From a virus: a DNA stretch of 31,885 nt. Below are positions 7,401 to 31,692 of this stretch, in pieces. Within the stretch, counting starts at the first letter, position 1, and every line of letters begins with the position of its first letter. Made by a program: the position numbers and the translations under genes. The notes under the pieces are model-generated. The model had not been told where the DNA came from. It searched no databases and saw only the letters and a list, made by a program, of their open reading frames with translations. The DNA is taken from the IMG/VR virus record IMGVR_UViG_3300026484_000200, positions 1 to 31,885 of that record; one strand, 5' to 3'.

Positions 7401-9837
7401 GTCCACTTGTGGTAGAGTTCTTGACATTATCAGTCTTAGAGTTTGTGTCGTTTGAGGGTGTATTAACATCTGCTTTAACTCCTCCACTTGTGTCGTTGTC
7501 AGTCTGTGTTCTAGCTTCATCAGCTCTATCGCTTCTGTTATCGAGTTTATCTCCACTAACACTTGTCTTAGATTTATCTGTTTCGTTTCGTTGATGTAAG
7601 CTGTTATCGCTTTTCGTTCTATTAGAAGAGGAAACACCTCCAGATAAGCTGTTATCGTCTTGCTCTGAAAGTGTAGATTTTGTTCTATCTCTTTGGTCAC
7701 TTTGTCCTGGTACTTCACTATCTCTTGTGGTGTCATTGAGAACACTATCTTGCTCCATTTGCAAGTCAAGTTCTGCGTGTTTGCTATCTCGTTCCAGTAT
7801 GCTTGGTCTATCTGTGTCATATTGTATATTCTCCGTTTCTTCATTTCCAAAAACTGCATCAGCTTCTGCTAATTCAGCCTCATATCTCTGTGGGTCTTCT
7901 TGCTTAATCTTCTTGTTAAAATCAACAATACTTTTATAAGCTGGAGTATTAAACCTTTGGTCTTGCTCCATTATGCCTAAATCATTTTTCAAATCTGCTA
8001 AATCATTTTTAGTAGCTGTACCTTTTTGTATCCGTTGAACTTTAGCTTTAGTTAAGGAAAAACCATGTGCATAATTAGGTTCATACAAAGCACTATCATA
8101 CCTAGATGATTTTTTCAACAACCTCTTAGGATGAACACTATCTGTAGATGATAACTCTTTTGTAAACTCTATAAGCTCATCATATCTTGGATGTTCTTTC
8201 AGCTTATTAGATATTATTTCAATATTATTATGATATTGTTTAGATATTAAATCAATATTATCTACATCTAATTTACTTTTTACTGATTCTATAGTTTTAG
8301 CATTGTCATGCTCTTGTGCAAGTTGTAGTTTCTTTACCATAAAATCATCAAACATAGTTATATCTTTAGATGCATAACTATCACTTGCTACTTTTGCTAA
8401 CTCGTCATTTGCCCCAGCTTCAAGAAGCATTGAGTTTAGTTCATCTTTTTTAAACTGCTCTTTTTGTATAGCTTCATAAAGATATTCTTTTAGTCTTGCC
8501 CCAGCAAAACGATTCTCAATCGCACGACCATCGTTGATGATAAATGTATATTTTACTTCATCTTCACTAGGTACTAATGTAGAGTTTAAATGCTTTTTAA
8601 CTTCTGTTGGTTTAACACCATCTTGTATAAGTTGCTCTATCAAAACCTTTTCTTGTGAACGAACACTCTTAGCTGTTTGTTCTACTTCATTAACTTTGTT
8701 TATAGCCTTAGCATTTATAGCTTCTACTATATGCTGACCAACACTCTCAGCCCATCCATGATAACCTGCAACTTTTACATCATCTGCTATCTGCTTAGTA
8801 GCTTTGTGTGTTATCTCTTTCATAGCATCAGGTTCTACTATCTCAGCTTCAACAAGTTCATTTGCTAATGCTGGTAAGTTTTCATGCACTAAGATAAAAT
8901 TAGGGTCTTTTGGTTGAGTAGTTTCTTTGACATTAACAGTTTCACTTTTGTATTTATCATCAACTTTTGAGTGTTTAGTAGCCTTTGTTGTTTCCTCATC
9001 ATTAAGCAAAGGATTGTTTAAAATATCCCTTTCAATATCATTATGATATTCATTTGATGTTGTTTTAATATTGTCTTTTACAGTTTTATGACTAAAAGCA
9101 CCACCCATTGAACCAAATGCTGAACCTGCTGCACCACCACCTGCACCACTTTGTATAGCTACTTTTGTTGCTTCATCTTCACTATGACCACGACCTCGTT
9201 CAACTGCATACTCAGTTGCACTTGTTACAACTGCACCCTCAACTGCACCACCTGCACCACCATAAATAACTTTAGTAGCTAAAGATGTACCAAACTTAGC
9301 AGCAAGACCACCAAAACCTAAACTTATTAGGTTTGTAGGGTCACCAACACCCTCTGTTACACCTTGAACAGTCCATTCACTAGGATGAGAACCAACATCA
9401 ACTGCTTTAACTACACCAGCCTTAACATTTTCCCAAACACCTGTAGCACTCTGACTTTGCTCATCAAGCTGTTTTAACTCTAATAACCTCTCAGGAGATA
9501 AACCAGCCCGTGATGTTTGCTCTTTCTTCTTCTCGAAAAGGTTAAGAGTATGGTCTAGTTTCTTATCATCAACTAAGTCAAGTCCAACTTTTTCAGCACC
9601 CCAATCAGCAACAGCACCAAGACGAAGACCAACAGTTCCTGCACCTCGCAAAAACTTAGCACCAGTATCATCTGAATTTTTTATATAATTTCTAGCTTTA
9701 TCAGCTATTGTTTTTTTCTTTGGAGGTTTTGGAGTGTTTAGTCTTAATCTAGCTACATCTTTTATCTCTTTATCAGTTTTTCCCTCACCCTGTAAAGTTA
9801 AAATTTCATCCTGAGATAATATTTCGCCTATATTCAT
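4423..9837 (-). CDS. Giant polyvalent protein: SF2 helicase plus adenine-type DNA methyltransferase
   Basis: An 1804-aa protein. Residues ~50-250 are rich in Gly/Ala (repeated GGA/AGG patterns), as in membrane-active ejected virion proteins. Residues ~270-690 are helical and charged. Residues ~700-820 are a disordered Ser/Asp/Thr/Arg linker. A superfamily 2 helicase follows: Walker A GTGTGKT (~873), DESH box (~958), SATPF motif III (~1099), and motif VI EGRTFRIG (~1404). A class I methyltransferase comes next: LEPSAGHGA (~1543) binds S-adenosylmethionine and NPPFG (~1602) is the amino-methyltransferase catalytic motif. The last ~40 residues (AKELATTLGGYWSRFKSGFI) are a small domain common at the ends of such proteins. 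P1 DarB has the same helicase-methylase combination and protects incoming DNA from restriction. The ATG has AGGA 7 nt upstream. A late-type promoter element precedes it, so it can be made independently of the other late genes. Confidence 0.85.
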   Translation of the reverse strand: MNIGEILSQDEILTLQGEGKTDKEIKDVARLRLNTPKPPKKKTIADKARNYIKNSDDTGAKFLRGAGTVGLRLGAVADWGAEKVGLDLVDDKKLDHTLNLFEKKKEQTSRAGLSPERLLELKQLDEQSQSATGVWENVKAGVVKAVDVGSHPSEWTVQGVTEGVGDPTNLISLGFGGLAAKFGTSLATKVIYGGAGGAVEGAVVTSATEYAVERGRGHSEDEATKVAIQSGAGGGAAGSAFGSMGGAFSHKTVKDNIKTTSNEYHNDIERDILNNPLLNDEETTKATKHSKVDDKYKSETVNVKETTQPKDPNFILVHENLPALANELVEAEIVEPDAMKEITHKATKQIADDVKVAGYHGWAESVGQHIVEAINAKAINKVNEVEQTAKSVRSQEKVLIEQLIQDGVKPTEVKKHLNSTLVPSEDEVKYTFIINDGRAIENRFAGARLKEYLYEAIQKEQFKKDELNSMLLEAGANDELAKVASDSYASKDITMFDDFMVKKLQLAQEHDNAKTIESVKSKLDVDNIDLISKQYHNNIEIISNKLKEHPRYDELIEFTKELSSTDSVHPKRLLKKSSRYDSALYEPNYAHGFSLTKAKVQRIQKGTATKNDLADLKNDLGIMEQDQRFNTPAYKSIVDFNKKIKQEDPQRYEAELAEADAVFGNEETENIQYDTDRPSILERDSKHAELDLQMEQDSVLNDTTRDSEVPGQSDQRDRTKSTLSEQDDNSLSGGVSSSNRTKSDNSLHQRNETDKSKTSVSGDKLDNRSDRADEARTQTDNDTSGGVKADVNTPSNDTNSKTDNVKNSTTSGLDLAEKLKLQEIAEEYEVVEADADNIALTLPIQLPHQQTNTLKAETRFFIKNKKGMLFTDGTGTGKTYTGLGIAKRFEKKGKKNILIVTPTDKKVKDWIGDAQNLRMKPTQLKGVNDAGDGTVVTTYANFYQNKALLSRDFDLVIYDESHYLMQNNRGEETASTKQHFAITNGRDYEITQRAESRVIPADILDFETFNNMNESLNEKFDIAGKILFHKDIETLADLDKHLQQHRIELSAKQKRELFNRAITQKDKQQAYFEAKREMADEIDEEIARLKSSDIKVVFLSATPFKGHFNLRYAMGYLFDVAREDGMSYNSGSGEQRFFIENFGYKMRYNKLTKPDAEIDVSLMERRFADSLKTDGALSGYTIIGDKDYSREFVKVGHNETDKMGRALDAVFDFKSKKYDELSKYVRHRFWDYLESNQMYEAMKAKYSIPMLKKHIQAGRQIVVFHKYNQTSTTQPFKFDNYSYTVNSFGRPTKHSLNVDTKALEQWGEFKKEFADVVDIKGFNSVIYTLKKEFGDDVVLFNGSIANKVRSKNVDDFNSGQKKIIVIQEQAGKEGISLHDIKGDAQRVLINMALPYDPIAGIQIEGRTFRIGVKSDAIYQYPILGFKLEEWQFGTEINKRLGTTENLSLGSDARALADTFKESFLNSIDESEAHLSTGKGGKVRDRTLVELSAWEIAKSDYYSNAKKTSRNKSSEGIDYFATPEPLGFKMVEWADILANDDVLEPSAGHGAIARYFPSNSKNKMIELSSELVGKLSLRAKGEIINSRFEDHNIINKYDTIVMNPPFGTAGKMAMEHLDKAYKHLKDGGRVVALIPDGASMQKRLNKWLYAEDKDGKLTNDASLSAEVLLPSSTFERAGTKVIGRVVVIDKAPADFTKTIDLRDSKDNKEFFSRLEHISLPNRKKKDTDVSIDELLDDSSIKVIEDIDTRDDSTIYVAKLQKQLDKAEFNKAKELATTLGGYWSRFKSGFIFPTKEKADSFKSEGC

Positions 9838-9864
9838 AAATAATCCTAATGTAAAATATACATT

Positions 9865-9897
9865 ATTTTATTTTAGAATAGTTGTTATTTTGTCACT
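9865..9897 (-). promoter_or_regulatory. Late-type promoter element, copy A
   Basis: On the minus strand TGACAAAATAAC (TGACA = complement of 9891-9895) is followed after exactly 20 nt by TAAAAT (complement of 9865-9870). The -10-like box lies 28 nt before the ATG of the 1804-aa polyvalent gene. The box and spacing match three other copies in the late region. Confidence 0.6.
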
Positions 9898-10393
9898 TTA
9901 AAACTTAATTTATAAAAAGAGTAGTATTTTTTGAAAGATTTTATTTTTATTTTTATTTTTGTGTGTTATTATTTTATATAGAGAAATTTGAAGTCATTAT
10001 CAACTACGGTTCACTTATAAGGGCATATAAAAAGAACCTATCCAAAATTTACTCTGCTTTTATTCTAACCAAGCAAAGGTTAGTTTAGCCGTGCAAAGGC
10101 AACTCTAGTTTAATCAGTTCAGATAAAGTTACTTCGTAAAATAAACTATTATCTGAGCTATACTCCATATAAAATTAACTATTAAAATAAACAGTTCCAT
10201 TATACTTAATACTCCGTGTTTTGAACTCCTCAAGTCGCTAGACTCTAACACCACATCCAATGTTCAAAAATCACAAAAAATTAAACTTTTATTGCATCTA
10301 TATAAAAATAAAAGAACGAACAACACTTAGATTTATACAGAACCAACCTAAATGAAATGAGATATTATCTAATTTTCTCTAAAAAAAACATTA
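9898..10393. other. Long non-coding gap, AT-rich left half and structured right half
   Basis: No convincing gene lies here. 9940-9960 is a short T-rich tandem repeat (ATTTTT units). On the minus strand TTGATA, 17 nt, TATATA near 9970-10000 could be an ordinary promoter toward the 1804-aa gene, but this is weak. The part from about 10064 to 10274 is dense in inverted repeats and is listed separately. I see no tRNA and no T-run terminator after the 217-aa gene. Confidence 0.5.
10064..10274. other. Cluster of stem-loops: candidate structured RNA or DNA site
   Basis: Several inverted repeats stand in a row: CTAACC/GGTTAG with a 7-nt loop containing GCAAA (about 10065-10083); GCC/GGC with loop GTGCAAA (about 10089-10100); AGTTCAGATAA (10116-10126) with TTATCTGAGCT (10149-10159), 11 bp with one G-U on the + strand and an inner AGTT/AACT stem; AACTATT/AACAGTT with one mismatch (10177-10196); and TTTTGAAC (10219-10226) with GTTCAAAA (10262-10269), extended by GTG/CAC across a 2-nt bulge and enclosing AGTC-GCTA-GACT. 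The first two share GCAAAGG. None is followed by a T-run on either strand, so they do not look like terminators. Confidence 0.4.
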
Positions 10394-11047: not shown

Positions 11048-11048
11048 T

Positions 11049-11291: not shown

Positions 11292-11314
11292 ATTTTAACC
11301 TTTATTTTTTATTT

Positions 11315-12566: not shown

Positions 12567-13387
12567 TATTTACTCACCGATACATCTTCACTTAGGTTTA
12601 TATCTGAGTTTAGTAAAAGTAGATTATTTAACTTATAAAAGTTTTTAAACATAGTTTCACTAGGAACTAAACCACCAGCACCGATAGTACCTATCATCTC
12701 AGATTGTGAATCTAAAGATTTTATAAGTCTATTGTCAGTCACACTCTCTCTTAGTGTCTTCTCTTGAGTCTTTTTATAAACTTCATCAGCCAACATAACT
12801 TTAGCTTGATTTTTTTGAACCTTAATCTGTGCAGTTTTTAAATCACTCTCAGCCCATAAAGTTTTTAGCTCTAAAGATATTTTTATCTCTTTGTCTAACA
12901 CCTGTAAAGCCGTACTCATAGCATTTTGAGTAACACCATTCACTATACCTATCATAGAGTTAGTAAGTAACTGTATCTTTTCCTCATCTGTAATGGTATA
13001 GTTTGCAAAGCTATCGTTAATATTTTTTATCATCTCTTTGTAAAATGCTGTATCTTTAGTACCATCAACGATTTCACCATAAAGTGTTTTATATCTTTTT
13101 GTAAAATCTTTAGGTGTTATCTGCTCCAAAGCAACTATTTGTGCTTTATACTTTTCAAACTCTTTTTCTACATCTTCAACATTTTTATATGCATCACTTA
13201 GCTCATCTTGTATAGTTGCATACTCACTATCTTTGTTTTGTATGGTTTTACTTAAAGCTGTATTAGAAGCTTTAAGTTCCACTATCTCATCATCTTTTTT
13301 TACAATCTCATCATCATGAAGAGATTGAGAGGTTTTTAACCTCTCATACTCTTCAAACTCATCATCATTAAGTATATGTGAACCCAT
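12566..13387 (-). CDS. Coiled-coil late protein, probable virion component
   Basis: 273 aa. Residues ~8-90 form a long heptad-rich coiled coil (repeated EI/EL spacing, KDDEIVELKASN). Residues ~90-230 are helical and include a conserved-looking core (ITPKDFTKRYKTLYGEIVDG, then NSMIGIVNGVTQNAMSTALQ). The C-terminus has MIGTIGAGGLVPSETMFKN. I do not recognise the family. It begins at the single base shared with the holin stop and ends at the single base shared with the next gene, so it is in the lysis/late operon. A structural or internal capsid role is inferred only from size and context. Confidence 0.6.
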   Translation of the reverse strand: MGSHILNDDEFEEYERLKTSQSLHDDEIVKKDDEIVELKASNTALSKTIQNKDSEYATIQDELSDAYKNVEDVEKEFEKYKAQIVALEQITPKDFTKRYKTLYGEIVDGTKDTAFYKEMIKNINDSFANYTITDEEKIQLLTNSMIGIVNGVTQNAMSTALQVLDKEIKISLELKTLWAESDLKTAQIKVQKNQAKVMLADEVYKKTQEKTLRESVTDNRLIKSLDSQSEMIGTIGAGGLVPSETMFKNFYKLNNLLLLNSDINLSEDVSVSK

Positions 13388-13812
13388 TAAACAGCACTCC
13401 TATTATCAGAACCTTTTTTGATTGATTGAGCTTTCTCAATACCACGAGAACCAAAATAAGCAACATAAACAGTCATCACCAAAGTTTGAACAAGAACCAC
13501 ATACGACTCTGGCACTATAAAATTCATCATAGCACCAAAAACCATAACAAAAAGTAAAAAACTCATAGCATGAAGAGTTAAAGGTCGTGCAGTCCGTGAG
13601 ATAACACCAGCAACTGAATCACTCTGCCATCGTGTAGTCACGGCTATATCTTCACTCTTTTGTAGCTCTATATCTAACTTCTTACTTTCAAGCTTATGAA
13701 GATTATTAGCCTTTGCTAACTCATTACTAGCTTCTAATCGCTCCTCATCAGATGTATAAACTTCATCAACCACATCACCAACAACCTTAGCTAATCCTAA
13801 AAAATCAATCAT
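13387..13812 (-). CDS. Holin, three-TM family
   Basis: 141 aa. An N-terminal amphipathic helix (MIDFLGLAKVVGDVVDEV) and a charged helix are followed by the signature of the 3TM holin family found in gene-transfer agents and phages: RWQSDSVAGVISRTARPL leading into two transmembrane helices at ~84-98 and ~103-120, then a short soluble tail. Such holins form lesions in the inner membrane that let endolysin reach the peptidoglycan and set lysis timing. It overlaps the end of the endolysin gene by 4 bp (ATGA-type coupling), which supports a lysis function. A second membrane protein lies on the other side of the endolysin. Confidence 0.8.
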   Translation of the reverse strand: MIDFLGLAKVVGDVVDEVYTSDEERLEASNELAKANNLHKLESKKLDIELQKSEDIAVTTRWQSDSVAGVISRTARPLTLHAMSFLLFVMVFGAMMNFIVPESYVVLVQTLVMTVYVAYFGSRGIEKAQSIKKGSDNRSAV

Positions 13813-14285
13813 GCTAAAGCTCTCTTTACCCAGCCATAAAAAAACTTTCTGTTTTTAGGGTTTCTTTTGCATATCTCTGCATATCTCGTTATCTTAGCAA
13901 GTGCAAATTTACTTAAAAAAAGCTCACTATCAAGAGAGTTTATTAAAGTTACACTATTGTTGCCTATCACACCATCAACAACAGCACCACTAACAGCTTG
14001 TGCTAGTTTACAACTCATGCGAACTCCAGCATTAACACCAAAGTCAAATATAGAAGATGCAACATTTATATTATCTATATCATCACACCGACATCTATCC
14101 CAATAATCATGCTTATAAATAGCCTTTGCTTCATCTCGTGTAAGACTTTTTATATCTATGCTAGGATAAGCTCTCTTGCTTATCCCAAACTTTGTTTCAC
14201 CACCTGCGTCATCAGGGTCATTAACATAACCACCCTCATGCGATAGTGTTTTGTCTATAACTATCTCAAAGTTATTTTTTTTCAT
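13809..14285 (-). CDS. Endolysin, GH108-type muramidase
   Basis: 158 aa. The N-terminus carries the glycosyl hydrolase 108 signature LSHEGGYVNDPDDAGGETKF with catalytic Glu17 in the HEGGY motif, followed by YWDRCRCDDI and VASSIFDFGVNAG, and a C-terminal peptidoglycan-binding region (VSGAVVDGVIGNNSVTLINS). The enzyme cleaves the glycan backbone of peptidoglycan during host lysis. There is no signal peptide, so it needs a holin for export. It overlaps the upstream membrane protein by 14 bp and the downstream holin by 4 bp, forming a compact lysis cassette. Length is typical for the family. Confidence 0.9.
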   Translation of the reverse strand: MKKNNFEIVIDKTLSHEGGYVNDPDDAGGETKFGISKRAYPSIDIKSLTRDEAKAIYKHDYWDRCRCDDIDNINVASSIFDFGVNAGVRMSCKLAQAVSGAVVDGVIGNNSVTLINSLDSELFLSKFALAKITRYAEICKRNPKNRKFFYGWVKRALA

Positions 14286-14633: not shown

Positions 14634-14939
14634 TTACGGTTTAACTGGAAATTCTAAAGCATCAAAATCTGTACCATCATCAATATTATTTGTTAAATCT
14701 CTCAACTCTTGACGATACTTAGCCCAACTTTTCTTTTTTGAAACACTAAGAGGACTATCAACTGTTTGTGTCCAATCACTCTCAGATAACAAAACATCTC
14801 TTTGGTATCTAAATGCATTTAGTTTTGTTTCAAACTCACTTACACTATCTGTAGTGGTTAGATTAGCTTGAAACTCATCTAACTCCTCTATCTCTTGACT
14901 ACTCATTTTAACTTTCTTACCATTTAAAGATTTAAACAT
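14634..14939 (-). CDS. Tail (fibre) assembly chaperone
   Basis: 101 aa. The C-terminal half matches the phage tail assembly chaperone pattern: FRYQRDVLLSESDWTQTVDS, then KKSWAKYRQELRDLTNN and an ending with FPVKP. In this family the conserved RD-LL-SDW and YR-LRD motifs form a helical domain that helps tail fibre subunits fold or assemble. A GGAG ribosome site lies 7 nt before the ATG, inside the end of the fibre gene. Its place directly after two fibre-like genes is the usual fibre-chaperone order. Confidence 0.75.
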   Translation of the reverse strand: MFKSLNGKKVKMSSQEIEELDEFQANLTTTDSVSEFETKLNAFRYQRDVLLSESDWTQTVDSPLSVSKKKSWAKYRQELRDLTNNIDDGTDFDALEFPVKP

Positions 14940-20180: not shown

Positions 20181-21098
20181 TTAAACTTTTATGTTTTCCA
20201 TCTTACAAACAGCAAAAGGGTTATTAACTCTTAAAGTAGCTTCCGTAATTATCTCTTTTTCAACAGCATCTTTAACTCTTCCTAACTCTTCATCTTTTGT
20301 TAGTCTTTGGTAAACAAATGCAAGTGATGGCATATTTACACCAAACATTAAACCCTGCTCAACAAAACGAGAGTAAACAATCTTTATATTTGGACTATAA
20401 GCAAGATTTTTAACCTCAGTATAGTTAGGGAACTCAACAACCTTACCACCAGCACCACGACGAACTTGTGCTTTAAACAAATCATCAATCTGGTCTTTAA
20501 CCAAATCATTAACATAGATATGAGTAACAGGCATACCCTTATCAGTACCACCTATTTTTGCAAAATTTCTAAGTAAAGTGTCACTCATAATATTGTCATC
20601 TGCATCGATTGTGTTCTCTGTAACACACCAATGATCAAGTGAACCCATACGACCAGCTACATCATTAGCTTTGTCCTCTTGAACAGGTGCTTGATCAAGT
20701 GCGAAAAGTGAACGCTCTATAGTAAGTCTATGATTTATAGCTGCCATTGTTTTTTGTCTTGCTAACTCAGCTTTACCCTCAACATTTTGAGCATCTTCCA
20801 TGCTTCCCTCAATCCCATAAGTATCTTTAAAAATTTCATAATGATTAAGAGAATTACTATAGCCCCAGCTCTCAGCCTCAGCTGGTGCAGAACCACCAAG
20901 AAAACCAGCACTAGATTTACCAGTTGGCATATCTTCATATCTCCAACTATGACCTTTCCATCTCTCAGCCTTTCTACTAGGCATATACTTATTTATAGCA
21001 CTAAAAAAAGGTGTATCTACAGCACCTAACTTTGCTATTTTCTCATAGAGGTCATCTTGACCACCACCCCAACTTTTCAGATTTACCAATCCCTGCAT
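20181..21098 (-). CDS. Major capsid protein (HK97-fold, SU10-like/DUF5309-like)
   Basis: 305 aa. The N-terminal part DDLYEKIAKLGAVDTPFFSA followed by a Trp-rich segment (ERWKGHSWRYEDMPTGK) matches the SU10-type major capsid family, in which the dTPF motif is highly conserved. A central Gly/Ala/Asp domain and THIYVNDLVKDQIDDLFKAQ follow, and a C-terminal beta domain (YSPNIKIVYSRFVEQGLMFG). The ATG has a strong AAGGAG site 6 nt upstream. It comes after a scaffold candidate and before the adaptor-like gene, the standard order. HK97-fold subunits assemble the icosahedral shell. Confidence 0.8.
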   Translation of the reverse strand: MQGLVNLKSWGGGQDDLYEKIAKLGAVDTPFFSAINKYMPSRKAERWKGHSWRYEDMPTGKSSAGFLGGSAPAEAESWGYSNSLNHYEIFKDTYGIEGSMEDAQNVEGKAELARQKTMAAINHRLTIERSLFALDQAPVQEDKANDVAGRMGSLDHWCVTENTIDADDNIMSDTLLRNFAKIGGTDKGMPVTHIYVNDLVKDQIDDLFKAQVRRGAGGKVVEFPNYTEVKNLAYSPNIKIVYSRFVEQGLMFGVNMPSLAFVYQRLTKDEELGRVKDAVEKEIITEATLRVNNPFAVCKMENIKV

Positions 21099-21107
21099 CT
21101 ACTCTCC

Positions 21108-21683
21108 TTAATTTAAAAAGTGTGATTGTTCATCAACACTTAACAACTCACCTTTAGCAAGTTTATCTTCAAACTCTTTATCTCTGTTCTCAGCTCCATC
21201 ACCTCGACCAAAGTTAAACTCATCATTTACAACATCTTTTGTAGCAAACTCTCTACTCCAAAGAAGTTCCCAACCAACAGGATTGTTATATTGCTCTGCT
21301 TCTTGTGGGTTATCTTTAGCCATCTCTTTTAGATGCTCTTCAATCTTACCTATATCAAAATCATCATAACGACTCTGTATAGTTTCAACAGCACTAGCTA
21401 TCAACTTGTCCTGCTCCTGAGCAGCTATATACTCTTTGAGTTCTGCAACCGTCTGTTTTAAATCATCTCCATCAGTATCAGAAGAAGTATCATCGGCATC
21501 AGAAGAAGTATCATCTCCATCAGTATCAGAAGAAGTATCATCAGCATCAGAAGAAGTATCATCTCCATCAGTATCAGAAGAAGTATCATCTCCACCACCT
21601 GCACCATCATCATCAACAACTTTAAGAGTTAAAAATGAAAACAAAAAAGACCAAATGGCAAAAATTCCAAATCTACTCTTCAT
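21108..21683 (-). CDS. Scaffold-like protein with Asp/Ser repeat
   Basis: 191 aa. The C-terminal ~120 residues are acidic and helical (ELKEYIAAQEQDKLIASAVE, a Y-rich bridge, NNPVGWELLWSREFATKDVV and a DKLAKGELLSVDEQ end), as expected of a capsid scaffolding protein placed directly before the capsid gene. Residues ~24-75 are a repetitive Asp/Ser/Thr linker. Residues 5-22 (FGIFAIWSFLFSFLTLKV) are strongly hydrophobic, which is unusual in a scaffold. The ATG overlaps the upstream 85-aa gene by 11 bp. It ends 10 bp before the capsid ATG. The C-terminal part is the firmer evidence; the N-terminus could be a membrane anchor or a start chosen too far upstream. Confidence 0.6.
   Translation of the reverse strand: MKSRFGIFAIWSFLFSFLTLKVVDDDGAGGGDDTSSDTDGDDTSSDADDTSSDTDGDDTSSDADDTSSDTDGDDLKQTVAELKEYIAAQEQDKLIASAVETIQSRYDDFDIGKIEEHLKEMAKDNPQEAEQYNNPVGWELLWSREFATKDVVNDEFNFGRGDGAENRDKEFEDKLAKGELLSVDEQSHFLN
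21463..21585. repeat. Tandem coding repeat, alternating 27- and 21-bp units
   Basis: Three 27-bp units (21463-21489, 21511-21537, 21559-21585; TCATCTCCATCAGTATCA plus a tail) alternate with two 21-bp units (21490-21510, 21538-21558). The 48-bp composite period encodes DDTSSDTDG/DDTSSDA blocks in the scaffold-like gene on the minus strand. Copies are nearly identical, consistent with recent expansion or slippage. Confidence 0.85.
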
Positions 21684-21994: not shown

Positions 21995-23551
21995 TCAAGA
22001 GATACCTAACTCTTTCATAGCTTTTTGTTCATTTTCATCTAAAGGCTCACTCTCCCCATCAACAAATACCTCTTTTAAAAATGGTGCTTCACCAAAATTC
22101 ATAGTCAAAATCTGCTTTAAAATTCTCTCAGATATTTTAGGGTTTATGTTTTGATTTTGCGATATAGGTAGAAGTACATTCATAAGGTCATTTATTTTTT
22201 TATCCTTATCAACAGTCATCCCAAAGTTTATATTTATCTCATAATCAATCTTTTTTCTATTTCCCTTAGCACCTAAAAAATATTTATCACCTGTAAGTTG
22301 TTCTATAACCTTAGAATCTGCATTTTTTAAAACTAACTCAACATACTCTTTAGCCCAATGCTCAAAGAGTGTATCTTTCATAAGGTTTACCATATTTGTA
22401 ATTCTTGTAGTTGAATTTGCATTAACCACAGCTAGTGCTGTACCACTTCTTCTATCACTAGCACCAGTTTGCCCTTGCTGTATAGAGTTTACAGCACTAG
22501 CCTCATTTAAATCTTTATCTAACAATGGTAAATCATTATTTAAAGAGTAGTCATTAGGTGCTGGCACAAACATCAACCCATCAAGTGAACCTTTAGCACG
22601 AATCCTCTGACCTGCTCCCTTTTTCATATCAGCAGGGTTTATCTGAGTTTTATCTGAGATAATTATAGATGGATTGATATGCTCCTCTTGTATATCATTC
22701 TTTTGATTCCTCTTTTGGTTTATCTCATCATTAAGCTCTTTTATAAGCTCAACAAGAGAAACACCATAAACAAGATTTTCATCTTCTCTTTTTGCATCAT
22801 CAACAGAAGCTAACCTTTCAAGTGCTATCCCCCACTTAAAAGGTATCTTTTTAACAGTAGTTTTTCTTAAAAGTATATCTTTACAAAAGGTTTTATATAT
22901 CCACTTATTACCATCACGAATATACAACTCCTTTATCTCAAACCTTTGAGTAATGTTCTCATCATCTTTAAAAATCAACTCTTTAGCATTCTTATCATAA
23001 ACACCTGTTTTTATCTTCTTAACAATTTGGTTCTGAGATTCTTTAAATCTATAAGCAACATATTCCACATCATCAATATTTCTAGCATCACAATCAAAAG
23101 CTATATCAGTTATAGGAACTTGGTAAGTAACAACTTTATCTTTTTTAGAATTCCAACTTATAAAAACAATACCCATAGAGTAAATTAACGAACTTAAAAA
23201 AGCTTTAGTTAGTTCATTATTAGGTTTTTGTTTCTTATAATAATAGTGAATAATCTTAGTAATTTTTCTTTGAAATTCTCCACCTTTATCATCAACAGCT
23301 ATCAACTCAATAGGGCAACCCTGAGAGAAAAAAGACATAGAAAATATACTTTTTACAATATTCACAATATTTCTAGTAACAGGTATAAATATCCTAGACC
23401 TTTTTGACTTCTTTAAGCTTTTTAATTTACTAGGTTCATATTCAGCGTTATAGTATCTTTCATTATCAACCCATTTATCCAAATTTTTTTGTTGATTATC
23501 AAAAGCTTTATTTACAAGAAAAATATCTTTATCCATTTTATTTTTTTTCAT
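21995..23551 (-). CDS. Portal protein
   Basis: 518 aa from the ATG at 23551, which has AAGGA about 7 nt upstream. The open frame runs on to a TTG at 23584, but that would place the start inside promoter copy D, so the shorter protein is preferred. The sequence has the podovirus-type portal layout: an N-terminal segment with NKAFDNQQKNLDKWVDNERY, a hydrophobic/basic clip region, repeated strand-helix units (VTYQVPITDIAFDCDARNID) and a helical stem with KELNDEINQKRNQKNDIQEE, then QQGQTGASDRRSGTALAVVN. Portals form the dodecameric ring at one capsid vertex through which terminase packages DNA. It is the first late gene. Confidence 0.75.
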   Translation of the reverse strand: MKKNKMDKDIFLVNKAFDNQQKNLDKWVDNERYYNAEYEPSKLKSLKKSKRSRIFIPVTRNIVNIVKSIFSMSFFSQGCPIELIAVDDKGGEFQRKITKIIHYYYKKQKPNNELTKAFLSSLIYSMGIVFISWNSKKDKVVTYQVPITDIAFDCDARNIDDVEYVAYRFKESQNQIVKKIKTGVYDKNAKELIFKDDENITQRFEIKELYIRDGNKWIYKTFCKDILLRKTTVKKIPFKWGIALERLASVDDAKREDENLVYGVSLVELIKELNDEINQKRNQKNDIQEEHINPSIIISDKTQINPADMKKGAGQRIRAKGSLDGLMFVPAPNDYSLNNDLPLLDKDLNEASAVNSIQQGQTGASDRRSGTALAVVNANSTTRITNMVNLMKDTLFEHWAKEYVELVLKNADSKVIEQLTGDKYFLGAKGNRKKIDYEININFGMTVDKDKKINDLMNVLLPISQNQNINPKISERILKQILTMNFGEAPFLKEVFVDGESEPLDENEQKAMKELGIS

Positions 23552-23570
23552 AACAATCCTTACAATCATC

Positions 23571-23603
23571 ATTTTAAAAAACAAATTATGCTATTTTGTC
23601 AAA
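23571..23603 (-). promoter_or_regulatory. Late-type promoter element, copy D
   Basis: Minus-strand TTTTTGACAAAATAGC (TGACA = complement of 23597-23601) is followed after exactly 20 nt by TAAAAT (complement of 23571-23576), 20 nt before the portal ATG at 23551. It fits as the main start of the late transcript, running away from the replication origin. Confidence 0.65.
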
Positions 23604-23652: not shown

Positions 23653-23694
23653 TTTTATATCTTGATTTTATATTGATTTTATATCTTGATTTTA
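23653..23694. repeat. AT-rich direct repeats (candidate unwinding element)
   Basis: TTTTATATCTTGA (23653-23665), TTTTATATTGA (23666-23676) and TTTTATATCTTGA (23677-23689) are head-to-tail, followed by TTTTA. Short AT-rich direct repeats beside iterons are typical of the DNA-unwinding element of Rep-dependent plasmid origins. Confidence 0.65.
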
Positions 23695-23737: not shown

Positions 23738-23824
23738 GATATAACTACTTTGTATGGTAGGTATAACTACTTTGTATGGTTTAATAATACCAAACAGTAT
23801 GTAGATATAACTACTTTGTATGGT
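23738..23824 (+). repeat. Iterons of a putative Rep-dependent origin
   Basis: The 19-bp unit TATAACTACTTTGTATGGT occurs exactly at 23740-23758, 23762-23780 and 23806-23824; the first and third are preceded by GA. Starts are spaced 22 and 44 bp, so all lie on one 22-bp (two helical turns) register, with a degenerate unit in the empty slot (CAGTATG near 23796-23802). Iterons upstream of a Rep_3 gene bind the Rep protein and control initiation and copy number. Confidence 0.8.
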
Positions 23825-23871
23825 TTAACTTTAATATTACCATCTACACAATCAGTAATATTAAAGTTAAA
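23824..23871. other. 17-bp perfect inverted repeat before rep
   Basis: Arms at 23824-23840 (TTTAACTTTAATATTAC) and 23855-23871 are perfect complements with a 14-nt loop. The left arm begins at the last base of the third iteron. Inverted repeats between iterons and rep often bind Rep dimers to autoregulate rep; a hairpin role in replication is the alternative. A 66-codon open frame across this repeat and the iterons is not a gene. Confidence 0.75.
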
Positions 23872-23999: not shown

Positions 24000-24956
24000 A
24001 TGAATGATAAAAGTATTGATAACATACAAAATAGTAATAGTGATTTAAATAGAGTTGTTGGACAATCTAATGAGATAGTAAGAAAAACATTTTATTCTAA
24101 TCTTGAGATTGATGATATAAAATTATTTAGAGCTATTATTTCAAAAATTAATTATAGAGATTCTTTGTTTAATGATTTTTATACTTTAAACTATAAAGAA
24201 CTTGACCTTATTGGAATTACAAAAAACACAAACAGAAGATTTACAAAAGTAGTTAATAGTTTAAAAAAGTTATCTTCCACATTTGTTAGTATTGTTGATA
24301 AAGATGGAATACCAACCGAATTAGGTTTAATTAAAAATAAATTTAAATATCCTAAAAAATCAAAACAGATTTTAGTAGAAATTGATGATGATTTGATGCC
24401 TTATCTACTAGAACTAAATGGAGAATATACAAAATACCAACTATCCAACATAGGAAAAATAAAAAGTATTCAACAGTTAAAGTTATATGAATTATTAAGA
24501 AGCTGGGCAAAACAAGGAATGTATAAAATTACATTAGAAAATTTAAAAGAATATTTAGAAATAAAAGAGGGTACTTATAAAATATATGGAAATTTTAAAC
24601 AAAAAATACTTAGTAAATCTATTGAAATTATAAATAAAGAAACAGATATTACAGTCCAGTTAGAAGAGTTAAAAATTAAATCATTCAAAATTGACACTTT
24701 AATTTTTCATATAGAACTTAAAAAACAAAACATCGCATTTGACATAACAGAGTTCATAGAAAAAGTTTTTACAGATAAATCAAAAAACAAATACCTCATA
24801 AAAAGTTATACAAAAGATGAAGAAAAAACTAACTACTATAACCTAGAACTACTAAGCTTACAAGATTATCAAATCTACACATTCAAAGAGAGCTTACCAA
24901 AAAAAGCACTATACCAACTGGTAAAAGGGCAGATAGATGTTAGTGAGATGACCTAA
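24000..24956 (+). CDS. Plasmid-type replication initiator (Rep_3/RepB-like)
   Basis: 318 aa with the double winged-helix pattern of Rep_3 initiators: residues ~38-130 (LFRAIISKINYRDSLFNDFY, the YKELDLIGITKNTNRRFTKV segment, SLKKLSSTFVSI) and ~155-245 (SIQQLKLYELLRSWAKQGMY, LKEYLEIKEGTYKIYGNFKQ). The RLYELL-like helix is typical of the family. Such proteins bind iterons as monomers to open the origin and dimers to repress their own promoter. Iterons lie 180-260 bp upstream, which supports the call. The gene is more AT-rich than its neighbours, hinting at separate origin of the replicon module. The start ATG has AAGG about 12 nt upstream, slightly far. It is convergent with the repressor gene, overlapping by 4 bp at the stops. 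Confidence 0.8.
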   Translation: MNDKSIDNIQNSNSDLNRVVGQSNEIVRKTFYSNLEIDDIKLFRAIISKINYRDSLFNDFYTLNYKELDLIGITKNTNRRFTKVVNSLKKLSSTFVSIVDKDGIPTELGLIKNKFKYPKKSKQILVEIDDDLMPYLLELNGEYTKYQLSNIGKIKSIQQLKLYELLRSWAKQGMYKITLENLKEYLEIKEGTYKIYGNFKQKILSKSIEIINKETDITVQLEELKIKSFKIDTLIFHIELKKQNIAFDITEFIEKVFTDKSKNKYLIKSYTKDEEKTNYYNLELLSLQDYQIYTFKESLPKKALYQLVKGQIDVSEMT

Positions 24957-24974
24957 TTACGACTAACATCTTTT
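24936..24974 (+). terminator. Hairpin over the convergent ends of rep and repressor
   Basis: GATGTTAG (24936-24943) and CTAACATC (24963-24970) form a perfect 8-bp stem with a 19-nt loop, followed by TTTT (24971-24974). The stop codons of both genes lie in the loop. The short T-run and long loop make it a moderate rather than strong rightward terminator. Confidence 0.5.
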
Positions 24975-25339
24975 ATAACCTTTAGTTTTTGTTCTATGTT
25001 TTTATATAAATCGTTATTTCCATAGCTTATTAAATCATCAATCAACATAGCTAACTCTTTAGAATTAACAATATCTTCAATTTTTTTAGTGTCTTTTTCT
25101 GCATCAAGATTAAGACTTACTTGTGTTGGTTTTCTATCGCCAACACCTAAAAACACATAATCAAGTTTATATCTACCAAGTTTACCATTTTCAATAATTT
25201 TTAAATATGGGATATTATTTCGTTTTTTCATTTGAGATATTTGCTGAGGAATAACCTCTAAAAATTCAGCGAGTTCTACATCTTTTTTAAACTCTAAAAC
25301 ATATTTTAATCTCTCAAAAACTTTCTCTGTATCATTCAT
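24953..25339 (-). CDS. CI-type phage repressor (helix-turn-helix)
   Basis: 128 aa. The N-terminal ~70 residues match the Bacteriophage CI repressor helix-turn-helix family: VFERLKYVLEFKKDVELAEF, then LEVIPQQISQMKKRNNIPYL and LDYVFLGVG, the last two marking the recognition helix and the GVG turn that ends the domain. The C-terminal ~55 residues are helical (SKELAMLIDDLISYGNNDLY); there is no Ser/Lys LexA-type protease domain, so RecA-stimulated self-cleavage is unlikely and induction would need another route, such as an antirepressor. It is divergent from the early operon across a 191-bp region with several inverted repeats, its probable operators. Confidence 0.75.
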   Translation of the reverse strand: MNDTEKVFERLKYVLEFKKDVELAEFLEVIPQQISQMKKRNNIPYLKIIENGKLGRYKLDYVFLGVGDRKPTQVSLNLDAEKDTKKIEDIVNSKELAMLIDDLISYGNNDLYKNIEQKLKVIKDVSRN

Positions 25340-25363
25340 TTGATAGTCCTTTAATCATAAATT

Positions 25364-25396: not shown

Positions 25397-25436
25397 TATA
25401 GACTAAGTATTTAATTACATTATAAACCAAACATCC

Positions 25437-25530
25437 TTAAAGCTGTACAAAGCACTTAGTTAGTCGTGTTTCTAAGTGCTTCATCAAGTGCTTTGTACAG
25501 CTTTAAACAAACACGACAGGAAAACACGAC
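25437..25530 (+). promoter_or_regulatory. Early leader with mutually exclusive hairpins and RBS-flanking repeats
   Basis: A perfect 21-bp inverted repeat (25437-25457 with 25486-25506; core GCTGTACAAAGCACTT) encloses a second stem that uses the same sequence: AAGCACTTAG (25450-25459) with CTAAGTGCTT (25472-25481). The two cannot form together. The inner loop holds GTCGTGTTT (25463-25471), complementary to AAACACGAC, which occurs twice at 25509-25517 and 25522-25530, directly on both sides of the AGGA ribosome site (25518-25521) of the next gene. No T-run follows either stem. Operator array, translational switch or antisense target are the candidates. Confidence 0.6.
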
Positions 25531-25965: not shown

Positions 25966-26204
25966 ACTTCACCAAAGAGCAAAAAAAACAAGTAACAAAA
26001 CATATCCACTCCATAAATGAGATGACAGCACAAGAACTACATAGTTTCGCTGCTAGATGGCACTTAGCAAAACCAGACTTAGAAAAAAATGTTTTTGACA
26101 TAGTCCTAAGAGCTATAGATCTACACAACATAAACATAAAAGACAACACAACCATAAACGCTTTAGCAGTAGTAGCAGATTTAGGGGCAGATGAAGATGA
26201 ATAA
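25962..26204 (+). CDS. Small helical early protein, unknown
   Basis: 80 aa, helical, MNFTKEQKKQVTKHIHSINE, then SFAARWHLAKPDLEKNVFDI and an acidic C-terminus. The ATG overlaps the previous stop (ATGA, 4 bp), and its end overlaps the primase start by 8 bp, so it is translated as part of the same operon. The ARWHLAKPD-type turn could be a small DNA-binding helix pair, but no family is recognised. Confidence 0.6.
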   Translation: MNFTKEQKKQVTKHIHSINEMTAQELHSFAARWHLAKPDLEKNVFDIVLRAIDLHNINIKDNTTINALAVVADLGADEDE

Positions 26205-29079
26205 CACATATCTTGCCATAAAACAAAGAGGCGTAAATACAAAAGAGTTCATAGAAAGACACTACAACATTGAGTTTAAAAACAACAAAGCTAGATGCCC
26301 TTTCCATGAGGAAAAAACATCAAGTTTTACCTACCAACAAAAAAACAACTTTGTTCATTGTTTTGGTTGTTCTAGTGGTGGAGATGCTATTAGTTTTGTA
26401 GAAAAGTTTGAAAAGTTGTCTAACTATGAAGCTTCAAAAAGAGTATGTGAACTAGAAAACATAGAGTATGAAGAGAGTGACAACACAAAAGAGTTAAGTG
26501 AAGAAGAGAAAAAACAAAGAGAACTAAAACATACCCAAGCTGTAGAAGAGTTGAAAAAGAAAAAACTCAAAGAGCAAGAAGAGGAAAACAAACTTAGACA
26601 AAAAGCTAAACAACAGATGTCAAAAGTTGCACCAACCTACCTAGCAGATTTTAAAAACTTTTATGGAACTATCCATCAGGATATAGCAAAAATATTTCCA
26701 AATCAAACGGAGATTTTCAACGAATGGGCTAACTACTACTTAGGATATGACTCAAGACAAAACAGCGTGGTTACTATAAACAGATATAAAGATGAGTTTT
26801 TCAACATCAAACATAGAACTAAAAAGAAACAAGATGGCTCAGATTATGAGGGTAAATGGATAGGCTGGTACAAAGGTAGCCGACACCCATTCCCACTAGA
26901 GTATTATCTACAACACAAAAGTGATGCAGTTGTATTAGTTGAGGGTGAAAAAGACTCCCTTAATCTACTCTCTTATGATATTAACAACATAACTCTAGGT
27001 GGAGTGTCAAACACATGGGAACATAACAAAGAACTACTAAAAGATAAAATAGTTTACATTTGGTTTGACCATGATAAAGCAGGTTATGAAAATGCTATAA
27101 AAAAATACTATGAACTAAAGAGCATAGCTCGTGATGTGTTTGTAGTGCTTTTTTACCACATAGATGCAGATATACCAAAAGGTTACGATATAAGTGACTT
27201 TTTGTATGAGAAACAATTTACAAATAAAAAAGAGATTTTTCATGCTATATCTTACTCAACATACAGATTAACAAATTCACTCATAGATGATATGGGTGAA
27301 TTTTGTGATAAAGATTTTTCCAACTACCATGAACTAGCACCATACAAAGACTTTAGAGATATTAAAAGAGAGTGGTCAAAAACAGACCAAGATGGAAATG
27401 CTTACAACATCTTTACTATAGTTGGTGAACTAGATGATGAAGAGGTAGATAAGTTCCTACAAGATTTGAAAAAGTCAAAAAAGATAGTTGGTTCAAAACA
27501 TGAAAGTGACTATGAACACTTTAGAAACATCTGTATAAATAGTGTCTTAGTAGGTCGTGATGATAAAGCTCAGATGATTGAAAACATGGAAAACACTTTC
27601 GATAGATTTATGAACATAAAAAAAATACTACTCACAAACTACAGACAAACACACATAGTAGATGCACTAAGAGCTTTTTTAAAAATGGCTAAAAAAAGTG
27701 GAAATACTTTTGCAAAGTACCAGGGCAATTTATATATTTGGACTGGAACTCACTACGAATGTTTAGACAACCTAGATGCACTCACAACTTGGATTCATAA
27801 TATTTGGTTTTTTCATGCAAGATTTGACATCAAAAAACAAACCAAAAGAAATATAGATGAGATAGTAGAAAATATAATGTCAAAAGCTTACGACATAGAT
27901 GAAACAAGAAGATATGAAGAGAGGAGAGTTATGAACTTCTTAAATGGCACTCTCAAAATCTCAAAAAGGGGTAAATACACCTTTGTAGAGTCACATAACA
28001 AAAAAGATTGTGCAACAAACATACTAAAATTTAACTATAACAAAAATGCAACAGCTCCAAAGTGGAAAAAGTTTTTAAACAGAGTTCTGCCAGACAAACA
28101 AGACCAGCAAACACTTATGGAGTTTATAGGCTACACCCTAGCACCAACACATAACTATGAATCGTTTATGTTTTTGTATGGAAAGTCAGGTGCAAACGGA
28201 AAAAGTGTCATACTAGATGTTATCCGTGCTTTTTTTGGTGAAGACAACACCTCTTCACTTCAGTTACAACAGTTCTTTGACCATCAACTAAGTTCATTAC
28301 AAAACAAAATTATAAACATTGGAAGTGAAATAGATGCTAAAGGTTTAGATAAAGGTCAATTAGCAACACTAAAAGCACTCGTTTCTCCAAAAGATTCTAT
28401 ACAAATCAATCCCAAAAATAAAGAACCATACCAACTAAAACCAAATGAGAAACCTAAACTTATCTTTGCAGGTAATGACAAACCAAAAGGTAGTGATGTA
28501 GATAGTGCAGTCTTTAGAAGAATGTTACTTTTAAACTTCGATGCAGAGATAAAAGATGATGAAAAGATAAGAGATCTCTCAGACCGTTTCAAAGATGAGA
28601 TGGCAGGTATTTTAAACATGGCACTAGAAGCATTAACAGTCCTGGTAAAAAATGGTAAGTTCTCAAGAAGTGACAAGATGAAAGGTGAGATAGAAGCATA
28701 CAAAGATGAGATAAACCCTATGCGAACATTTGTAAAAGATACACTAAAAGTAGATAACTCCTGTATGGTAGCTAAACCTTTTGTGTACCACTTCTATAAA
28801 GAATGGGCAAGTGAAAAAGGTTTTAAACCTTATTCAGAAATCAACTTTTGGAGAAAGATTAAAGATGAACTGCCAAACATAGAAACTACAGGTAAACAGA
28901 TAAGACTTGCAACCTCATACTTTGGGATTGAACGACCAAGATTTGTACTAAACATAACTTTACAAAACAATGAGTTTAAATCGTTTAGATACAACAACAT
29001 AGAGATACCAGTAAATGAGATTACATTATCCAATGAAAAACCTCATGATGTGGTGATTTTTGAGCAAAACAGCGATTAA
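26197..29079 (+). CDS. Primase-helicase (DnaG-type zinc and TOPRIM plus SF3 helicase)
   Basis: 960 aa from the ATG at 26197 (AGGGG nine bases upstream; an ATG at 26191 is only 3 nt from it). A CHC2 zinc finger has C34, H37, C55 and C58 (CPFH and CFGC). A charged coiled-coil spacer follows at ~95-140. The TOPRIM primase core has VLVEGEKD with E249 and FDHD with D291. The C-terminal half carries a D5N-type region and a superfamily 3 helicase: Walker A GKSGANGKS (~662-670), Walker B-type INIGSEID, and KLIFAGNDKP. Together it primes and unwinds DNA, as P4 alpha and related phage replication proteins do. It closes the early operon and is directly followed by the GTCACG repeat cluster. Confidence 0.85.
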   Translation: MNNTYLAIKQRGVNTKEFIERHYNIEFKNNKARCPFHEEKTSSFTYQQKNNFVHCFGCSSGGDAISFVEKFEKLSNYEASKRVCELENIEYEESDNTKELSEEEKKQRELKHTQAVEELKKKKLKEQEEENKLRQKAKQQMSKVAPTYLADFKNFYGTIHQDIAKIFPNQTEIFNEWANYYLGYDSRQNSVVTINRYKDEFFNIKHRTKKKQDGSDYEGKWIGWYKGSRHPFPLEYYLQHKSDAVVLVEGEKDSLNLLSYDINNITLGGVSNTWEHNKELLKDKIVYIWFDHDKAGYENAIKKYYELKSIARDVFVVLFYHIDADIPKGYDISDFLYEKQFTNKKEIFHAISYSTYRLTNSLIDDMGEFCDKDFSNYHELAPYKDFRDIKREWSKTDQDGNAYNIFTIVGELDDEEVDKFLQDLKKSKKIVGSKHESDYEHFRNICINSVLVGRDDKAQMIENMENTFDRFMNIKKILLTNYRQTHIVDALRAFLKMAKKSGNTFAKYQGNLYIWTGTHYECLDNLDALTTWIHNIWFFHARFDIKKQTKRNIDEIVENIMSKAYDIDETRRYEERRVMNFLNGTLKISKRGKYTFVESHNKKDCATNILKFNYNKNATAPKWKKFLNRVLPDKQDQQTLMEFIGYTLAPTHNYESFMFLYGKSGANGKSVILDVIRAFFGEDNTSSLQLQQFFDHQLSSLQNKIINIGSEIDAKGLDKGQLATLKALVSPKDSIQINPKNKEPYQLKPNEKPKLIFAGNDKPKGSDVDSAVFRRMLLLNFDAEIKDDEKIRDLSDRFKDEMAGILNMALEALTVLVKNGKFSRSDKMKGEIEAYKDEINPMRTFVKDTLKVDNSCMVAKPFVYHFYKEWASEKGFKPYSEINFWRKIKDELPNIETTGKQIRLATSYFGIERPRFVLNITLQNNEFKSFRYNNIEIPVNEITLSNEKPHDVVIFEQNSD

Positions 29080-29089
29080 ATGAACTTTT

Positions 29090-29385: not shown

Positions 29386-29422
29386 AGATTAATTAAACAT
29401 AACTTAAAAAGGGGCTTTTTAG

Positions 29423-29626
29423 ATGGCATTTCAAATAAAAGAGATAGTTATAGAACCAAGTGCTATAGGTTTAACAAGAACTACTAAAAAAAAAGTATGG
29501 CTAAACCCTAAAGTGTCTATAAAATATAAAAAAGGTAATACAGTTATAACAAGCTTTGAAGCATATCCTGAAGCTATGGACTTTGTAGCAGAATCTTTAA
29601 CAAAGGATAGAGATGTTGCCAAATGA
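29423..29626 (+). CDS. Small beta-rich hypothetical protein before terminase
   Basis: 67 aa with strands IKEIVIEPSAIGLT and KVWLNPKVSIKYKKGNTVIT, then a helical EAYPEAMDFVAESL. AAGGGG lies 9 nt before the ATG. The end overlaps the small terminase gene by 14 bp. No family is recognised. Confidence 0.6.
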   Translation: MAFQIKEIVIEPSAIGLTRTTKKKVWLNPKVSIKYKKGNTVITSFEAYPEAMDFVAESLTKDRDVAK

Positions 29627-30134
29627 AAAAAGAGGTTTTGACCTATATATAGAGAGTGCAACATTTGAAAATGGTTTTATACCCCTCTCCTTTGCAAAAA
29701 TAGCAGAAAAACTAAAAGAAGAACAATACTCAGGAAGTAAAGCAAGTGTTCATAGATGGAGTAAAAAGTACAAATGGGAAGAACAACTACATCTTAAAAG
29801 ACAAAAAGCTATCTTAGTAGCTGGAGGCGATAAAGATATACAAGAAAAAGCTATCTCAGTTCTTGATGAAAAAACTAAAGTGGATGTTGAAAGAAATGCG
29901 ATACTTATAGGTGGCTCGTATGATGTTATGGAGGGTTTTATAGAAAAAGTAAAAGCTGAGATGGCAAGAGGTATCTATAAACTAGACAACATAAAGTTAG
30001 CTAAAGATATAGCAGTCCTCGTAACTGGTCGTGAAGATAAGATGCTAGACCGTCTAGCAGATATGGGTGCAGATAGATTGTCAAGCCAAGATTTAAAAGC
30101 TGAATTTGAAGCGATAGAAGTAGATTTTGAGTAA
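29613..30134 (+). CDS. terS: Terminase small subunit candidate
   Basis: 173 aa. The N-terminal ~60 residues hold a helix-turn-helix typical of small terminases (IPLSFAKIAEKLKEEQYSGS, KASVHRWSKKYKWEEQL, where the W-x-K-KYKW-x helix is the usual signature), followed by an oligomerisation helix region with Ala/Gly/Lys. The C-terminus is acidic. Small terminases recognise the packaging site and activate the large subunit. The stop overlaps the large terminase start by 8 bp. Family assignment relies on the HTH pattern and on gene order. Confidence 0.7.
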   Translation: MLPNEKRGFDLYIESATFENGFIPLSFAKIAEKLKEEQYSGSKASVHRWSKKYKWEEQLHLKRQKAILVAGGDKDIQEKAISVLDEKTKVDVERNAILIGGSYDVMEGFIEKVKAEMARGIYKLDNIKLAKDIAVLVTGREDKMLDRLADMGADRLSSQDLKAEFEAIEVDFE

Positions 30135-31692
30135 AACTAAATCAAATGCAGTCCTAAAAATAAAAACTGCTAAACATATAGCACCAGAGATTTTTACAAA
30201 TAAATCACCACTCATACATAAAGAGATTTTAGACTTCTTAGATGAGTTCGATAAATATAAAGTAGCTACTATATTTCGTGGAGCTGGTAAAACAACAGTT
30301 GTAAATAAAATAGATACTTTCTCAGATATTTTGTACGAACATGAACCATATCATCAAATATTTTCATCAACTGAAAAAAAAGCTAAAAAGTTTTTAAAAG
30401 ATGTTAAAAATATGATAATCTCAGCTATAGCAAAAGGTTATCACATAGAAAAAGGTAGTGTTTGGAGCGATACAGAGATAGAGGTTAAAGTAGATGGAAA
30501 ACATAACTGTTTTGTAGAAGCATTAGGAGCAGGGCAAGACCCTCGTGGTGGTAGTTTTAATTTTATGCGACCAACTAAACAAACATTTGATGATATAGAA
30601 TCAAAAGTGGGTCAGTATGCTATCCGTTCAAGAGCAAACCGTGAAAAACTTTGGGAATGGTTTTTGGGTGATTGTTTACCTGCACTAGATCCAGTTGCTG
30701 GAAGAGCTAGAGTTATAGGAACTATCTTACACGCAGATTCACTCATATCTAAACTTTTACGAAAAAAGAACTTTAAAAAACTTGTTATACCTATACTTAG
30801 AGATGAAAAGAGTGTATGGGCTGATAGGTTTCCATTGACAGATGAAGATGCCAAAATAAAAGAGATGCACTATCTAAAACAAACAGGTAAACATATAGAG
30901 GTTGAATCTATTGAGTCTATAAAAAGAGGTTTGTTTTCAGAGGGTAAACATAACTTATTTTATCAAGAATACCTTTGTATAGCTCAATCAGAGGAAAAAA
31001 CACTTTTTAAAAGAGAACATTTTAGATACTTCTCCCATATAGAATATGAAAATAAAGTAAGAAATATAGAGTTTAAAAATGCACTAGAATCTGAAAAAAT
31101 CATAGTAAAAAAACCTAAAAATATAGTTTTAAAAGATGGCTCAACAATCCCACTAGCAAACTGTACCATATATAGCACTATGGACTTAGCAAGTGATGGT
31201 AAAGATAAAAGTGCAATTCTCACATTTGCTATAGATACACATAACAATATTTACCTACTAGATATAAGTGCAGGACACTGGACCCCTTTTGAAAAATCAT
31301 TAAATGCTATCCGTATTCAAGCTACTTTTAACCCTATCCGATTCGGTATAGAAAAAGCTGGAGCTCAAAATGATTTTTTCTATACTGTAGATGTAGCTCA
31401 AAAAGAGAGTGGTATCAATATACCAGTAGAAGAACTAAGACATGGTGGTGTAAACAAAAATATCCGTATATCAAATCTACACCCACTTTTTATGACAAAT
31501 AAAATCTTTTTTAATGAAGATGACATAAATACAGCAGAACTAGAAGCTCAACTAGGAACATTTGATATAGATGTAGAAAGCTTACATGATGACATAATGG
31601 ATGCCCTAGCTTATTTACTACACTTCATAAAAGACAGAACATTTAGTGACGAATGGGAAGCAGAAGATGAGGAGGAAAGCGTATGGAATTAA
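30127..31692 (+). CDS. terL: Terminase large subunit
   Basis: 521 aa. The ATPase half has the Walker A variant RGAGKTT (R51-K55), a coupling segment, and Walker B TFDDIE (D155-E158). The nuclease half has the first catalytic Asp in TMDLASDGKDKS (~358) and the final Asp pair in HDDIMDALAYLL (~500-505). The protein cuts concatemeric DNA and drives it through the portal. The start is TTG with GAAG six bases upstream, coupled to the small subunit stop; there is no in-frame ATG near the N-terminus, so TTG is used here. A P22/Mu-like class cannot be decided. Confidence 0.85.
   Translation: MSKTKSNAVLKIKTAKHIAPEIFTNKSPLIHKEILDFLDEFDKYKVATIFRGAGKTTVVNKIDTFSDILYEHEPYHQIFSSTEKKAKKFLKDVKNMIISAIAKGYHIEKGSVWSDTEIEVKVDGKHNCFVEALGAGQDPRGGSFNFMRPTKQTFDDIESKVGQYAIRSRANREKLWEWFLGDCLPALDPVAGRARVIGTILHADSLISKLLRKKNFKKLVIPILRDEKSVWADRFPLTDEDAKIKEMHYLKQTGKHIEVESIESIKRGLFSEGKHNLFYQEYLCIAQSEEKTLFKREHFRYFSHIEYENKVRNIEFKNALESEKIIVKKPKNIVLKDGSTIPLANCTIYSTMDLASDGKDKSAILTFAIDTHNNIYLLDISAGHWTPFEKSLNAIRIQATFNPIRFGIEKAGAQNDFFYTVDVAQKESGINIPVEELRHGGVNKNIRISNLHPLFMTNKIFFNEDDINTAELEAQLGTFDIDVESLHDDIMDALAYLLHFIKDRTFSDEWEAEDEEESVWN

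Follow-up and report, generated by a model that had tools for sequence, protein, structure and literature searches.

A probable phage-plasmid lineage of Campylobacterota with an iteron replicon and SU10-type virion genes

In P1, N15, SSU5, and D6, the structural and lysis genes of a phage are linked to a plasmid initiator, to genes for partition, and to a recombinase that probably resolves multimers. Phage-plasmids of this sort are a well-described kind of element (PMC11652158, PMC10879196, PMC9600943). Campylobacter is mentioned in none of these three papers and Helicobacter is unmentioned in two of them, and our text searches, in a literature coverage that was non-exhaustive, found no paper describing phage-plasmids in Campylobacterota. 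The temperate phages NrS-1 to NrS-5 of Nitratiruptor are siphoviruses, with an integrase among the core genes listed for them, and the separate circular plasmids of the Nitratiruptor hosts carry no prophage genes (PMC9723563).

Here, we analyzed a stretch of 31,885 bases (~31.9 kb; hereafter the window), which is a whole IMG/VR record and an incomplete viral contig. An earlier note, made from the letters alone, had proposed that it is a phage-plasmid maintained as an episome. The element resembles P1, N15, SSU5, and D6 in its phage structural and lysis genes, initiator, partition genes, and probable resolver. We saw no close sequence relationship to these four; the window differs from them in its SU10-type, podovirus-like character and its Campylobacterota hosts, and in that members of its family hold either Rep_3 or RepL in one slot. 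The window and NrS-1 to NrS-5 both appear to be temperate phages of Campylobacterota, but the NrS phages are siphoviruses with an integrase. The Nautiliales plasmids pHRV44 and pNitYY0826_PLS share with the window family a Rep initiator and a ParA followed by a ~70-aa partner, whereas no matches to the phage structural proteins of the window were found in the parts compared. The Campylobacter-type proviruses IMGVR 2881293083 and 2881301707 have portal, primase, TerS, and TerL in the same order as the window but encode a 386-aa integrase and lack Rep_3, RepL, and ParA. The kind of element is known, and its podovirus-like lineage in Campylobacterota appears to be new.

Replicon, lysogeny control, and phage genes of the window

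The GC content is ~33% across the window and falls to 24% around the origin. No known RNA families were found in the window. The initiator gene (24000..24956, + strand) encodes both domains of a Rep_3 protein, Rep3_N (1.7e-18) and Rep3_C (1.7e-9), above the Pfam cut-offs; as is typical of this type, the protein has two winged-helix domains and iterons lie near its gene. Its top-scoring plasmid relatives among the matches listed are on Arcobacter-group plasmids, and a sequence search against solved structures returned no match. Three identical 19-bp iterons, TATAACTACTTTGTATGGT, are located at 23740..23824 on the + strand, starting at 23740, 23762, and 23806, i.e., in steps of 22 and 44 bp that keep a 22-bp phase. 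Four matches to this motif were found in the whole window, where 0.03 are expected by chance, and none of 100 shuffled sequences reached four. Tandem Repeats Finder detected 3.4 copies of an AT-rich unit of ~13 bp (23653..23694), which is probably the unwinding element of the origin, and a perfect 17-bp inverted repeat that looks operator-like is placed between the iterons and rep (23824..23871). The initiator, phased iterons, and AT-rich element described in the earlier note were thus all recovered. Among 23 relatives collected in the first round, Rep_3 had a single match, on a separate contig of the Sulfurospirillum genome described below, which indicates that the phage family as a whole does not share Rep_3.

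The lysogeny-control genes of the family comprise a CI-type repressor and proteins with pRha and AntA domains. In the window, the predicted repressor (24953..25339, - strand, 128 aa) matches PF07022 (Phage_CI_repr) weakly and barely above the cut-off (4.5e-5), and it is 43% identical to a protein of the relative GLR69 that scores better (7.1e-7). The intergenic region between the CI gene and an HTH gene contains a perfect 21-bp inverted repeat with 28 nt between its arms (25437-25506), which may be an operator or a terminator. At the left contig end, the window encodes a pRha N-terminal domain fused to HNH (12..1007, + strand; PF09669 1.1e-17, HNH_4 7.9e-9), an antirepressor-like protein at a hypervariable locus.

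The late genes are read from the - strand. They encode an SU10-type portal (21995..23584; PF23899 1.3e-11, phrog_332 1.9e-40), an SU10-type major capsid protein (20181..21098; PF17236 5.3e-34), a tail-fibre assembly protein (14634..14939; phrog_4912 3.6e-14), an endolysin of the GH108 type (13809..14285; phrog_315 7.5e-52, PF05838 9.4e-28), and a holin (13387..13812; phrog_3427 4.8e-18). An acidic protein encoded next to the capsid gene (21108..21683) is probably a scaffold, judged by its position, its 48-bp tandem repeat, and its 43% identical counterpart in GLR69. Only distant capsid matches were found among 50,697 phages and none on known plasmids. We recognized no major tail protein in the window and matches to tape-measure proteins were weak; together with the SU10-type portal and capsid, this makes the virion look podovirus-like. 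The earlier note had spoken of a complete virion module: the genes for portal, capsid, holin, endolysin, and tail-fibre assembly are confirmed, and completeness is more than this incomplete contig can prove.

Two large proteins are encoded downstream on the same strand. The 1804-aa polyvalent protein (4423..9837) combines helicase and methyltransferase parts (phrog_10691 1.5e-268, phrog_342 1.2e-8; ResIII, Helicase_C) and weakly matches an internal virion protein. We take it to resemble DarB of P1, and it may be injected against restriction. The other, of 878 aa (1793..4429), is family-wide, 60% identical in GLR69, and probably virion-associated; its match to phrog_2206 (C-terminus of a virion RNA polymerase) is weak (2.5e-5). 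On the other arm, all on the + strand, follow a primase-helicase with CHC2 zinc finger, Toprim, and D5 domains (26191..29079; phrog_864 7.7e-70, PF01807, PF08706) and the terminase that the earlier note had placed there. TerL (30127..31692) is assigned by phrog_38 (5.1e-59). The assignment of TerS (29613..30134) is weaker: its PF06056 match (0.0017) is barely under the cut-off, and it is probable from a 64% identical counterpart ahead of TerL in GLR69.

As noted previously, the sole recombinase of the window is a minimal tyrosine recombinase of 194 aa (1205..1789, + strand; PF00589 3.5e-15). It consists of the catalytic domain alone, with the catalytic residues kept in the alignment, and there is no N-terminal domain for binding arm or core sites. 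Only four plasmid relatives of it were found among 72,556 plasmids, all from the Arcobacter group (Arcobacter/Aliarcobacter). No full-length integrase was found in the window or in the second contig described below. The small recombinase is probably a multimer resolver, in line with the earlier note, but this is the least secure of the proposed functions because integrating relatives keep a version of it too. A candidate recombinase site upstream of its gene, AAAGGTATTAA, recurs in the par-recombinase region of GLR69 but is absent from the window, and was dropped as a shared site.

A second contig carrying partition genes and a rearranged antirepressor locus

Comparison of the window ends gave zero end-to-end overlap, which indicates that the genome extends beyond the window. 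Its right end cuts a DNA methyltransferase gene, of which only the 5' part is present (31705..31885, + strand). A second contig, IMGVR_UViG_3300026512_000048, is 99.4% identical over window positions 9910-31885, contains all three iteron copies, and extends 7.4 kb past the right end. This extension carries the complete methyltransferase gene (L012 6730-7569; PF01555 1.5e-29) followed, in order and on the opposite strand, by genes for a 216-aa ParA and a 76-aa partner. Partition genes, which the earlier note had suggested seeking outside the window, are therefore present in a near-identical phage. ParA is a small Walker-type ATPase with a P-loop (KGGSGKTT) near the N-terminus and without an N-terminal DNA-binding domain; its best match among solved structures is ParF of a plasmid (1.6e-16), and its best plasmid matches by score, among the matches listed, are from Nautiliales. 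The 76-aa partner has no Pfam match, and a homologue adjoins ParA on the Nitratiruptor plasmid pNitYY0826_PLS; the Nitrosophilus plasmid pHRV44 shows a comparable row of replication initiator, ParA, and an ORF of ~70 aa. Repeats upstream of parA are present in GLR69 and are not convincing in the second contig. At its end, the second contig leads back into the left end of the window. The window plus ~5.7 kb from the second contig would close into a circle of ~37.6 kb if both strains agree, the gap being bridged solely by this slightly different strain.

The region between ParA and the antirepressor locus of the second contig is variable. It includes an ORF with a PBECR3 nuclease domain (L012 3355-3762, + strand), an ORF resembling part of the 878-aa protein of the window (L012 2047-2538, + strand), and, alongside these, several small HTH genes. 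Beside ParA, a direct duplication of ~315 bp with 94% identity (L012 2629-2942 and 3882-4183) partly resembles window positions 10382-10435.

Among the side findings, the antirepressor locus stands out as the most unusual. In the second contig, the HNH half of the window's pRha-HNH gene (477 bp, 99% identity) occurs twice, in inverted orientation and once at each contig end (L012 2-817, - strand; L013 1809-2564, + strand). One copy is fused to AntA and the other to a different pRha, so that the same HNH half is joined to three N-terminal antirepressor domains (two pRha versions and one AntA) in phages that are otherwise nearly identical. Possible explanations of this arrangement are an inverted duplication, an inversion, or an assembly effect at the contig ends. 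One could imagine that the small recombinase, or recombination between the inverted copies, reshuffles the locus by giving one HNH alternative pRha or AntA N-terminal domains; we regard this as a long shot. If it were true, members of the population would carry differing antirepressors and answer different triggers, and the locus would be a programmed variation system of a phage-plasmid lysis-lysogeny switch and, as such, the most novel part of the element.

Plasmid-type and integrating relatives

The nearest non-identical relative is contig WTBY01000076.1 of the Helicobacteraceae MAG GLR69, with identities of 77% for TerL, 69% for primase, 63% for the small recombinase, and 50% for ParA. Its ends overlap by 127 bp with an exact match, as is usual for circular contigs, which gives a circle of ~34,860 bp (~34.9 kb), although a circularly permuted, headful-packaged genome also yields a circular contig. 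The check for a circular element suggested in the earlier note thus gave a closed circular map for the nearest relative, while the window itself is unclosed. The gene order is that of the window, running from capsid to TerL, ParA, recombinase, and the two large proteins and back to the late genes, and the contig links every module in the arrangement expected if the window were closed into a circle. In the slot between portal and CI, however, GLR69 carries RepL (over the cut-off) where the window has Rep_3; relatives of this RepL are mostly on Campylobacter plasmids. The GLR69 contig has no full-length integrase, only a small recombinase (194-197 aa), and no Rha-HNH locus between ParA and recombinase.

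A third relative, IMGVR_UViG_3300032253_000014, encodes its own, different Rep_3 (1.3e-11) adjoining the portal, with about six 21-bp iterons, TATTCTCATCAAATGAGTGAG, beside the gene (L076 17259-17393). It also has ParA with a 73-aa partner, a minimal recombinase alone, and a CI repressor with an S24 peptidase domain. A 191-bp repeat of 98% identity near both ends of this contig is suggestive of a circle, but we do not claim one because the match between the two ends is inexact. In the TerL tree, the window, GLR69, and the third relative form one clade with support of 100/100.

More distant relatives bear full-length integrases, and two of them are located at tRNA genes. Three Campylobacter-type proviruses (G003, G004, and G007) each encode one integrase of 386 aa, and searches for Rep_3, RepL, and ParA found none in them. 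In a Campylobacteraceae MAG, a provirus has a 417-aa integrase that adjoins tRNA-Pro, with cellular genes beyond. A Sulfurospirillum MAG contains a 71.5-kb composite prophage (G009:C7 50869-122432) at a tRNA-Ser gene, delimited by direct repeats that are 26 bp or longer and with a 348-aa integrase at one end. This composite holds RepL, ParA, a ParB-like ORF, two small recombinases, and two late-gene sets, which means that the split between integrases and plasmid genes is not absolute and that plasmid genes alone are no proof of a plasmid state.

The probable mode of lysogeny

We consider it very probable, from gene content and comparison, that the window derives from a podovirus-like temperate phage that infects Campylobacterota and persists as a circular plasmid prophage. 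During lysogeny, the CI-type repressor would hold the lytic genes off, while Rep_3 would bind the 19-bp iterons and open the AT-rich element, allowing the circle to replicate with its copy number under control. ParA, together with the small partner protein, would distribute copies to the daughter cells, and the minimal tyrosine recombinase would probably resolve multimers. Antirepressor-type proteins, in which pRha or AntA is fused to HNH, probably trigger lytic growth. The phage would then use its primase-helicase, terminase, capsid, and lysis genes and presumably produce virions.

Episomal lysogeny, as the earlier note had proposed, is supported by the partition genes, the GLR69 circle, and the lack of an integrase. 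Alternatively, a conventional temperate phage that integrates, has borrowed Rep_3 and ParA, and uses the small recombinase as its integrase would fit the more distant relatives with full-length integrases, two of them at tRNA genes, and the Sulfurospirillum element, in which RepL, ParA, and small recombinases lie between repeats at tRNA-Ser. We judge this unlikely, since the small recombinase has no N-terminal domain that would bind arm or core sites, the contig of the nearest relative closes into a circle, and integrated relatives keep a separate full-length integrase beside the tRNA gene. In addition, the plasmid-type members form their own TerL clade, and no tRNA genes were found in the window. 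The refuting pattern named in the earlier note, att-flanked integrated copies in every related genome and no circular form, was not found: the relatives sited at tRNA genes, of which one has att-like ends, encode full-length integrases and stand further from the window.

The weak CI match in the window and the phage's own primase-helicase could also point to a virulent phage without a lysogenic state, in which Rep_3 and the iterons start lytic replication. CI-type repressors are nevertheless kept in GLR69 and in the third relative, and antirepressor domains and a partition pair would have no evident use in such a phage, which makes this highly improbable. Least credible of all is a chimeric assembly of plasmid and phage: the contigs are metagenomic and both near-identical ones have variable ends, but these two differently ended contigs agree over the replicon-phage joins, and two relatives likewise carry a replication initiator gene in the corresponding slot next to the portal gene.

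With the window read as the plasmid prophage of a temperate phage, one phage family has both integrating and plasmid members, which makes a gene-by-gene comparison possible, and two families of plasmid initiators occupy one slot within it. The family would therefore be a natural test of how phages shift between integrated and plasmid lysogeny.
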